Source of the DNA: Candidatus Omnitrophota bacterium
Lineage (GTDB): Bacteria; Omnitrophota; Gorgyraeia; Zapsychrales; Fredricksoniimonadaceae
Assembly: GCA_021731625.1 (NCBI GenBank)
Contig: JAKFXC010000032.1
Location: 1-48,576 of the forward strand
Reading direction: 5' to 3'
Length of the DNA stretch: 48,576 bases
In this document: positions 43,597 to 46,303 of the stretch, in pieces
Layout: every line of letters starts with the position of its first letter
Numbering within the stretch: position 1 is the first letter of the stretch
Position numbers and translations under genes: made by a program
The notes under the pieces: model-generated
The model's database searches: none
The model's input: only the letters and a program-made list of their open reading frames with translations
Told to the model about the DNA's origin: nothing

Positions 43597-43989
43597 ATGA
43601 AGATAGTTCTTAAGCGTATATATAATCAGTCAATGCCATCAGATGGCCTAAGAATCTTGGTTGACCGGTTGTGGCCCCGAGGCCTTTCCAAAGAAAAGGC
43701 GGCGGTAGATGTATGGATGAAACAAATAGCCCCTTCAACATCATTGCGTCAATGGTTTGGCCATGATCCAAAAAAATGGCAGGAGTTCCGAATAAGGTAT
43801 CTAAAGGAGCTTCAGGTGAATGAGGCGGATACGGAAAAGCTTAAGAGCTTCTTATCAGGAGAGCGAACAACAACGCTGTTATTTGCCGCGAAAGAAGTGA
43901 AATTAAACCACGCAGTTGTTCTGAGAGAATTTTTAATACAGAAGAGTCGGCGTGATCGGACCGTTCAAAAGCTTAAAGCATGTTGTTAA
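43597..43989 (+). CDS. DUF488 family protein, YeaO-like
   Basis: A 130-residue protein matching YeaO-type DUF488: LKRIYNQSMPSDGLRILVDR, LWPRGLSKEKAAVDVW, IAPSTSLRQWFGHDPKKWQE. The family function is unknown, though members often sit in stress or metal-related loci. The ATG at 43597 fits the family start; a longer open frame reaching back to 43351 is a shadow of the preceding gene. The tail ends LKACC, two extra cysteines. Confidence 0.9.
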   Translation: MKIVLKRIYNQSMPSDGLRILVDRLWPRGLSKEKAAVDVWMKQIAPSTSLRQWFGHDPKKWQEFRIRYLKELQVNEADTEKLKSFLSGERTTTLLFAAKEVKLNHAVVLREFLIQKSRRDRTVQKLKACC

Positions 43990-44248: not shown

Positions 44249-44277
44249 TTGCAGCTGGGGGTATCCCTTAGTACAAT
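44249..44277 (+). promoter_or_regulatory. Promoter of the fluoride riboswitch transcript
   Basis: TTGCAG (44249-44254) and TACAAT (44272-44277) with an ideal 17-base spacer. Transcription would start near 44284, about 9 bases before the aptamer. Confidence 0.65.
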
Positions 44278-44292
44278 GAATTAAATAATTGA

Positions 44293-44346
44293 GGCGATGG
44301 AGTTCGCCATGGACTGCCCAGATCTTCGTGGCTGATGACTCCTACG
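44293..44346 (+). ncRNA. Fluoride riboswitch aptamer (crcB RNA)
   Basis: The 5' part reads GGCGATGGAGTTCGCC (44293-44308) and the 3' part GCTGATGACTCCTACG (44331-44346), with a short GC stem region between (CTGCCC, GTGGC). These are the invariant blocks of the crcB motif RNA, which binds fluoride. It is followed by a terminator that shares the ACTCCTACG strand and by a crcB remnant, the classic target gene, which independently confirms the call. Confidence 0.93.
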
Positions 44347-44382
44347 TTTCCGGTGTCGGAATGCGTGGGAGTTTTTTATTTT
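44338..44382 (+). terminator. Riboswitch-controlled terminator (expression platform)
   Basis: ACTCCTACG (44338-44346) pairs with CGTGGGAGT (44364-44372, one G-U pair); an inner hairpin TTCCG/CGGAA sits within the loop, and a T-rich tract follows. The 5' arm is the conserved 3' strand of the aptamer, so aptamer and terminator exclude each other: fluoride binding should permit read-through. Confidence 0.85.
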
Positions 44383-44605
44383 GGGGGGAGGAACAGGCGC
44401 CATTGCAAGGTATTGCCTCTCAGGATTGATGCACACATTGCTGGGTGCAGATTTCTTGTTGGGATTACTGATAGTCCTGATGGAAGAAAGGCCGATGTTG
44501 TCGCCAGATGTGCGCATATTCCTGACAGGGGGGATTCTAGGAGGATTTACTACATTTTCTTCATTTATGTCTCAATTGGGCATATGGGCAGCAAGCAGGT
44601 TCTAA
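44361..44605 (+). pseudogene. crcB: Decayed fluoride channel gene crcB/fluC
   Basis: A frame from 44381 reads GGGTGAIARYCLSGLMHTLL and later SPDVRIFLTGGILGGFTTFS, clear FluC/CrcB signatures. Three lesions are visible. The likely ATG (44361) is 2 bases out of frame with the body. The middle segment carrying the conserved P-x-G-T-L-x-V-N motif is absent, G-A-D-F joining directly to L-L-G-L-L. The protein stops 16 residues after the Phe-box, without the last two helices. About 75 codons remain of roughly 125. TTG at 44381 is a conceivable start, but the product would lack the channel Asn. Confidence 0.85.
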
Positions 44606-44620
44606 CCTTGTTGGAATCCC

Positions 44621-44648
44621 TTGTGCTTTGATTTAATTTTGTTATTAT
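44621..44648 (+). promoter_or_regulatory. Probable promoter of the antiporter gene
   Basis: TTGTGC (44621-44626) and TATTAT (44643-44648) with a 16-base spacer, giving a leader of about 105 bases that contains two hairpins before the antiporter ATG. Confidence 0.45.
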
Positions 44649-44656
44649 CAAGTGGG

Positions 44657-44735
44657 TCTGGAAATGTTTCCAGAGGTTTTTATTGATGGTCGGGCCGCCA
44701 TCTGATGGAAAAATCAGAGGGCGGTCTTTTCTTTT
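44657..44735 (+). promoter_or_regulatory. Two-hairpin leader / terminators upstream of the antiporter
   Basis: Hairpin 1 is a perfect 8-base repeat TCTGGAAA/TTTCCAGA (44657-44664, 44667-44674) followed by GGTTTTT. Hairpin 2 is GCCGCC-A-TCTGAT (44694-44706) pairing with ATCAGA-G-GGCGGT (44713-44725), followed by CTTTTCTTTT, a strong rho-independent terminator. Being 25 bases before the antiporter gene, it either ends the crcB transcript or is an attenuator. Ligand unknown. Confidence 0.6.
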
Positions 44736-44759: not shown

Positions 44760-45827
44760 ATGGTCATTATTTTTTGTTTACTTTTAATATCAGGGATTAT
44801 AGCTGGGCAGGTTTTTGACTTGTCAGGGGGGAGAAATACCCTCGGTTTAATGACTTCGGTCTGTTTAGCTTACATTATGATCGAGGTTGGCTTGGAATTC
44901 TCTGACGATAAGAGAAAGATAAGCAGTTATAGGTGGGACGCTGTTGTTGCCTTTTCTGCTGCCGCATTGCCCGCCATTTTGTGGTTTATCTATTTTTTTG
45001 TGTTTATTCAAAAATCCTGGCAGCCTGCTTTAATTTCTGGTCTTTCCAGCTCCCCAACTTCGGCGGGTGTTCTTTTTTCAATGATGATGGCTGCGGGCTT
45101 GAGCGCTACCTGGCTTTTTAAAAAGGCGCGTACATTGGCGGTATTAGATGATCTGGTGGTGATCCTGTTATTGACCCCGCTTGAGATTGTCCTTCAAGGG
45201 TTTAACTGGGGTTCCCTCATGCTTCTGGCTCTAATTGCGGGGTTGTTATCTGCTTCTTTTCGCTGGCAGAATTCTATTTCCTGGCCCCTTGGTGAACGGT
45301 GGATTTTGCTCTACGCTTTTATCTTAACAGGAGTTGTTTTTCTGATGAAAAGTACCGTGAATATCCACCTCGAAGTTCTTATTCCTGCTTTTATGCTCGG
45401 ATGTTTAATCCTTCAGCACAAGTCCCAGGCAACAACCGTTCATAGTAAGTCATTTCTTAACCTGGATACGGCTATTAAAGGTTTGTTTATGTTTTTCGTT
45501 GGCCTTTCTTTTCCTAAGATTTCAATTGGAGCTGCATCTGTGTGGGAAACCATAGGCCATGTCCTTTTATTGACGCTTTTAGCCAATTTAGGTAAATGTT
45601 TCCCCGTTTTGTGTTACCGCAAAGATGTTCCCTTGAACGAACGATTTGCTTTAAGCATTGCCATGTTTCCAAGAGGAGAGGTGGGGGCGGCTGTCGTGCT
45701 TATAGGAATCGGGTATGGTTTTGGTGGTTATATAAGTACATTAGCCATGTTAAGTTTGGCACTTAACTTGGTTTTAACGGGAGTCTTTGTCTGGATGGTC
45801 CTGAAGCTTTTGAACAAAGCACCTTAA
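44760..45827 (+). CDS. CPA2-type cation/proton antiporter (Kef/Nha-like membrane domain)
   Basis: A 355-residue membrane protein with about 11 helices and family features: GLMTSVCLAYIMIEVGLEFS, ALISGLSSSPTSAGVLFSM, LAVLDDLVVILLL with the paired acidic residues of the ion site (LDDL), and AMFPRGEVGAAVVLIGIG, the C-terminal P-R-G-E motif. It exchanges Na+ or K+ for H+. No RCK/TrkA domain is present. Antiporters of this superfamily are common members of fluoride-responsive loci, and a fluoride riboswitch lies 470 bases upstream, but terminators intervene. GAGGGAAT precedes the ATG. Confidence 0.92.
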   Translation: MVIIFCLLLISGIIAGQVFDLSGGRNTLGLMTSVCLAYIMIEVGLEFSDDKRKISSYRWDAVVAFSAAALPAILWFIYFFVFIQKSWQPALISGLSSSPTSAGVLFSMMMAAGLSATWLFKKARTLAVLDDLVVILLLTPLEIVLQGFNWGSLMLLALIAGLLSASFRWQNSISWPLGERWILLYAFILTGVVFLMKSTVNIHLEVLIPAFMLGCLILQHKSQATTVHSKSFLNLDTAIKGLFMFFVGLSFPKISIGAASVWETIGHVLLLTLLANLGKCFPVLCYRKDVPLNERFALSIAMFPRGEVGAAVVLIGIGYGFGGYISTLAMLSLALNLVLTGVFVWMVLKLLNKAP

Positions 45828-45839
45828 GGGAGGGATAAG

Positions 45840-45992
45840 ATGAGGACATGAGTTGCTTATGATGAGTCTGAATGTTCGGATGCCACGTTAGACGATTTAA
45901 CTTGGGCGGGTTTGCCTCCTAAAACGGAGGCCTTGATGCTAACTACCACCGATGTGTGGTCGCCGGAGGCAAGTGTACATGACACACGGTGA
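45840..45992 (+). pseudogene. Broken universal stress protein (UspA) gene, 5' part
   Basis: Twelve bases after the antiporter stop, AAGGGAGGG precedes ATG-AGG-ACA-TGA: the fourth codon is a stop. The same frame continues VAYDESECSDATLDDLTWAG, LPPKTEALMLTTTDVW, which reads as the UspA N-terminus (A-Y-D-G-S-E-x-A-x-x-A-L), until a second stop at 45990-45992. The rest is lost and IS3 sequence begins about 20 bases further on. A small hairpin (GCCTCC/GGAGGC, 45914-45931) lies within it. Confidence 0.65.
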
Positions 45993-46014
45993 ACATATCG
46001 CTAATATGGCTTAG

Positions 46015-46275
46015 GAAACTCGCGCAATTGAACGTGGAAGCCCTTGGGAGAACGGAGATATTGAATCGTTTAAGGGCAAATTACGCAATGAGTTGCTGCA
46101 TGGGGAAATATCTGATACGCTTTACAAATCGCAGGTGTTAATCGAACGCTGGAGCACCGGAAGCAATCCAAGCACATTGGTTAATCCAGCCATCAGTACT
46201 ACACAACAGTTGGCTCAACAAGTAGGGCAGGTCAGCCCAGCCCAGGCTATTTTTACGAGGCCAAATAAGCGATCA
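46015..46275 (+). mobile_element. Remnant of an IS3-family transposase (OrfB C-terminal part)
   Basis: After a stop at 46012 the frame reads ERGSPWENGDIESFKGKLRN and ELLHGEISDTLYKSQVLIER-W, matching the DDE catalytic-domain end of IS3-family transposases (S-P-W-E-N-G-x-x-E-S-F, with the catalytic Glu). Sequence after I-E-R-W (about 46155) loses the match and the usual H-S-S-L-G-Y end is missing. No inverted repeats or OrfA were found, so this is a fragment and not an active element. Confidence 0.8.
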
Positions 46276-46303
46276 CTCATGCTGGCAAGATCAGGGGGAT
46301 TTT

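Follow-up and report, generated by a model that had tools for sequence, protein, structure and literature searches.

In the analyzed stretch of 48,576 nt (hereafter the window), an intact fluoride riboswitch was found in front of a frame that, by its profile match and its alignment with relatives, is a genuine but broken crcB/fluC gene. With a probability of roughly three in four (about 0.77), we regard the crcB gene, the target of this riboswitch, as a recent pseudogene, with ordinary loss having not yet reached the switch. All features described below lie on the + strand and are given in window positions.

The fluoride riboswitch and its broken gene

An Rfam scan of the window yielded exactly two matches above the curated cut-offs, namely the fluoride aptamer and an nhaA-I RNA. 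The aptamer (RF01734, 44284-44351) scored 47.2 bits in cmscan (GA 34; E 4e-10 with the whole window searched) and keeps the consensus base at 21 of 21 strongly conserved columns, defined as those at least 95% conserved across 43 other RF01734 matches in the phylum. An earlier note on this DNA had described the aptamer as intact; the covariance check agrees, and on sequence grounds the element is a fluoride riboswitch of the RF01734 family. The same note had called promoter and terminator well formed. A promoter-like TTGCAG-N17-TACAAT is indeed located 5' of the aptamer (44249-44277) and matches 8 of 12 consensus positions by manual count, but it scores under the threshold of a stricter standard promoter scan, which made no call there. 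A predicted intrinsic terminator (44338-44382, fold z -3.95 against shuffles of the fuller segment) uses the 3' strand of the aptamer: in its stem (44338-44346/44364-44372), ACUCCUACG of the aptamer is paired with CGUGGGAGU, followed by TTTTTTATTTT, and its -21.5 kcal/mol is the lowest value among the hairpins listed for 44 loci folded alike. Hence, the arrangement would be an ON switch, in which the terminator would form only without the folded aptamer. In score, conserved bases and overlap of the terminator with the aptamer 3' strand, the element is like the fluoride riboswitch (crcB motif, RF01734) with a terminator platform; it departs from the canonical system in that the gene controlled here is broken.

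The crcB/fluC remnant (44372-44605) was delineated by its Pfam CRCB match and by alignment with full-length relatives. Its frame runs from 44372, beginning with FFILGGGTGAIARY and continuing to GGILGGFTTFSSF, and reads FFILGGGTGAIARY...GADF|LLGLL...GGILGGFTTFSSFMSQLGIWAASRF up to the stop codon. It matches CRCB (PF02537) with E 5e-10 over profile positions 5-72 of 103 and also matches solved FluC structures (5a40 and others), while the equivalog TIGR00494 gives 41 bits, under its cut-off of 80.45. In common with the FluC/CrcB channel it has GGxxGAxARY in TM1 and a GxxGGxTTFSTF-type box in TM3; the family signature of TM3, GxxGGxTTFSTFxxE (PMC3755343), is kept as GGILGGFTTFSSFMSQ, with T to S and E to Q. 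In contrast to the channel, with its four TM helices and about 120-130 residues, the remnant is without a proper start, half of TM2 and TM4, and has 74 codons counted from TTG 44381, its sole in-frame start codon. Its nearest relatives in a 384-genome phylum sample are about 50% identical, and a search of named genomes for its close relatives retrieved one distant Bacillus match only.

Three claims of the earlier note on this gene, a displaced start, a missing P-x-G-T-L-x-V-N segment and truncation after the Phe-box, were all confirmed. In the window, 12 nt separate the T-run from the GG motif, versus about 49-56 nt, counted by hand, in five terminator-type relatives (L045, L051, L053, L055 and L056), which places a first deletion scar at approximately 44378-44384. 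Compared with these relatives, about 37-44 nt are missing, a stretch that in them carries ribosome site, start codon and the opening codons of the gene. A second scar, at approximately 44449-44457, appears as a 13-column gap in the profile alignment with the FluC family. Here 39 nt were lost in frame, equal to the 13 residues P-x-G-T-L-x-V-N-L-x-G-C-F that form half of TM2 and include its P-x-G-T-x-x-V-N segment; this gap is absent from the aligned full-length relatives. The frame then stops after TM3 (the Phe-box helix), and TM4 is absent. A stretch in another frame that might derive from TM4 (GSNLVGIPCALI, 44606-44650) was considered and rejected, being without statistical support and matching no profile up to E 10. 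In what is left of crcB, the codons show good conservation (GGxxGAxARY, GGxxGGFTTFSSF) and no internal stop interrupts them; this speaks against the pseudogene reading, as it is not what old neutral decay usually leaves.

Fluoride switches and crcB genes in the genome and the phylum

The window genome (2.28 Mb in 101 contigs, 94.9% complete) was searched for an intact crcB, as the earlier note had proposed, and contains no second CRCB match even at E 10 and no further fluoride aptamer. Since 5% of the genome is missing, an intact copy could lie outside the assembly. A CLC-type exporter as replacement was rejected, the only match in this genome being one of 18.5 bits, below the cut-off. The recent orphaning that the earlier note had put forward is thus supported: aptamer and terminator have stayed intact, at least two deletions and the loss of TM4 have struck the gene, and the genome has no other CRCB match.

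CRCB matches were detected in 58 of 92 related genomes, all of them near full length except the window remnant. Among the crcB matches listed, which come from 123 of 384 phylum genomes, open frames have at least 69 aa and nearly all have at least 95 aa. The crcB genes of the same family mostly precede a DUF190-like gene (by eye) and have no switch; a search of 10 loci for an overlooked fluoride aptamer in front of them found none, permissive thresholds included. In two genomes, tandem pairs of CrcB/FluC domains were observed inside giant open frames of 13,934 and 7,894 codons (L112, G045:C12:36806-37576, and L113, G043:C24:106601-107380), a two-domain layout reminiscent of eukaryotic FEX.

We also surveyed the sequence 3' of fluoride aptamers in two 384-genome samples of the phylum. 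Among 26 arrangements of fluoride switch and crcB, 21 have an intact and five, the window included, a truncated or shredded crcB. The gene behind the intact aptamer stops after 16 codons in G391; in G314 it carries large deletions and shifted frames and can still be aligned with an intact relative of the same family; in G293 only the first crcB codons remain, followed by a transposase-like frame (by eye); and in G227 the first crcB copy is shortened by a tandem duplication of 371 bp. At this last locus (L038, G227:C8:39131-39565), the duplication of about 371 bp comprises the switch and the 5' part of crcB, and the truncated copy precedes an intact one. All four genomes have an intact crcB elsewhere, whereas none was found in the window genome. 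The survey shows that a broken crcB behind an intact fluoride switch is a recurrent state in the phylum. Since it begins with intact aptamers, it cannot show that selection keeps the switches.

The nhaA-I riboswitch and the antiporter downstream

Between the crcB remnant and an antiporter gene lies the second Rfam match, which the earlier note had missed: an nhaA-I RNA, i.e. a riboswitch aptamer of the Li+-I / Na+-II type (RF03057, 44654-44703; cmscan 50.5 bits, GA 37). A promoter-like TTGTGC-N16-TATTAT (44621-44648) is located 5 nt upstream, and its TATTAT matches the -10 consensus at five of six positions. A predicted intrinsic terminator, formed by GCCGCCATCTGAT and ATCAGAGGGCGGT and followed by TTTTCTTTT (44694-44735; fold z -4.3), takes the 3' strand of this aptamer as well. 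Next comes an intact antiporter of the Na+/H+ exchanger family with 355 aa (44760-45827), which matches Na_H_Exchanger (PF00999) with E 6e-12 and 45.5 bits, above the cut-off of 26.2. Judged by this layout, the antiporter is controlled by its own nhaA-I switch, and the unit probably has its own promoter.

The nhaA-I RNAs belong to the Li+-I riboswitches; a variant that carries a terminator has been studied, senses Na+ and is termed Na+-II. White et al. report terminator-type members from Deltaproteobacteria only (PMC9646797). Like these, the RNA in the window is above the cut-off and precedes a Na+/H+ antiporter, with a terminator as in Na+-II. It differs in that the form with a predicted terminator is general here in another group of genomes. 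nhaA-I RNAs were present in 98 of 384 sampled phylum genomes, and a terminator hairpin with T-run accompanied 36 of the 36 inspected (at loci that include L063-L092 and L116). The neighboring switch thus indicates that the group holds a large stock of terminator-type Li+/Na+ riboswitches about which little has been written.

Orthologs of the antiporter were identified in 12 other genomes of the order, with up to 67% identity, and a paralog with 58% identity occurs in its own genome. The idea that this antiporter and crcB usually occur together was rejected. Only one relative, G036 of the same order, has a common backbone with the window that consists of thiF, a BNR-repeat gene, a MoaD-like gene and the antiporter. 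There the antiporter directly follows the MoaD-like gene and the intervening segment of the window is wholly absent, which indicates that this segment is dispensable. The antiporter ortholog of G036 (L114, G036:C3:4421-5475) is split by an in-frame TGA. Other elements were observed around the switch in the window: a gene for a DUF488 protein from the 'inactive' subclade N3 (43600-43989), adjoined by a small frame that is rich in Cys and lipoprotein-like, neither of which occurs at the syntenic locus of G036, and a remnant of an integrase-type transposase (rve_3, about 45990-46290), a degraded IS fragment about 1.4 kb downstream that counts in favor of gene loss.

Explanations for the intact switch

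According to the favored reading, recent loss of the gene with the switch still intact, transcription would start near 44284. As in the known riboswitch class, the 3' strand of the aptamer would be drawn into the terminator when fluoride is lacking, and transcription would stop near 44380; with fluoride present, the aptamer would keep this strand and RNA polymerase would continue. Such read-through would enter a crcB copy that lacks its ribosome site and start, half of TM2 and all of TM4, and would give no working channel. The antiporter would be run by its own nhaA-I riboswitch and terminator, probably from its own promoter. The response of transcription here to fluoride, or to Na+/Li+, is one that we infer from the known riboswitch classes. 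The switch would survive as a short element in a young decay, and selection is unnecessary as an explanation. The gene has been hit by two or more deletions and is missing its end, the switch has been hit by none; if three deletions fell evenly, the probability that all would hit the gene of about 375 nt and none the switch of about 105 nt is about 0.48, so its survival is unremarkable. Given this chance of about 0.48 and a survey that finds intact-switch loci only, selection keeping the fluoride switch was rejected as not demonstrable.

The earlier note had also suggested that the switch was kept for the antiporter. Read-through from the fluoride switch would then feed the antiporter gene through two ion switches in series, the gene being reached only with Na+ or Li+. 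Among the genes associated with fluoride switches, Na+/H+ antiporters form the second most frequent class (PMC11139923), and the antiporter in the window belongs to the same Pfam family. Within the phylum, too, 11 switches were seen by eye to precede antiporters, and all eight of the downstream genes tested belong to PF00999; further targets include enolase and ATPase genes, one that resembles phosphoglycerate mutase, and a family of unknown function. (At L134, L061, L049 and L150 and at L059, L135, L142 and L143, the switches precede a family whose proteins begin with MKHTxYFNLLxALKExGC and AAA-type ATPases, by eye; at L049, G062:C48:3314 onward, the sequence after an intact fluoride aptamer holds a phosphoglycerate-mutase-like fragment, short and broken, with another gene beyond it.) A terminator scan moreover found no strong terminator between the crcB remnant and the nhaA-I RNA. 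Some remaining use of the switch is therefore conceivable, as fluoride switches of the phylum commonly drive antiporters. Unlike in the published fluoride-switch/antiporter systems, however, the antiporter here is separated from the fluoride switch by a crcB remnant and by another riboswitch, which has a promoter-like site to itself. None of the orthologs in the 12 other genomes has a fluoride switch beside it, and in G066 the ortholog has the nhaA-I RNA upstream, alone. The phylum surveys of both RNAs found the two switches close together in no other genome, and in tblastn the antiporter of the window did not match the fluoride-driven antiporters. A dedicated riboswitch for the antiporter takes away most of the appeal of this proposal, and we consider such read-through unlikely, if still the strongest competitor. 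Less likely again is that loss of crcB made a serial gate, which fluoride would open first and Na+ or Li+ second, fluoride-driven transcripts reaching the antiporter only with both ions.

We give little credence to an assembly artifact, in which the true genome would have a complete crcB and the missing segments would be consensus errors. The genome is a draft of 101 contigs, but the artifact would have to account for two or more distinct gaps (about 37-44 nt and 39 nt) in addition to the lost 3' end, and independent genomes show similarly damaged crcB genes after this type of switch. A simple homopolymer error cannot be the cause: it shifts the frame and cannot remove 39 nt, so a sequencing-error route needs several separate misassemblies. 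It is very improbable that the frame of 74 residues opening with TTG encodes a functional short protein under fluoride control, be it a mini channel or a regulator. GGGAG in the terminator arm (44367-44371) is 9 nt before TTG 44381 and might serve as ribosome site, the frame is open and conserved motifs remain. Yet TM4 and half of TM2, including the conserved Asn segment, are missing, the putative ribosome site lies hidden within the terminator stem, and no similar short form is present among the crcB matches listed from the 123 phylum genomes. Equally hard to credit is the other use proposed in the earlier note, a short regulatory RNA, which the switch would have been kept to supply in dependence on fluoride. 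When fluoride is lacking, terminated transcripts of about 95 nt would arise; every terminator-type riboswitch, however, makes such leaders, and the proposal found no support in either a target or conservation past the riboswitch itself.

Recent loss of the gene thus remains the preferred reading, and the locus, with its four companions in the phylum, provides a clean example of an ion riboswitch outliving the gene that it served. It also calls for caution when a working fluoride response is inferred from a riboswitch match alone. If the loss is real, either fluoride defense is dispensable in the organism to which the window belongs, or another system does the work.
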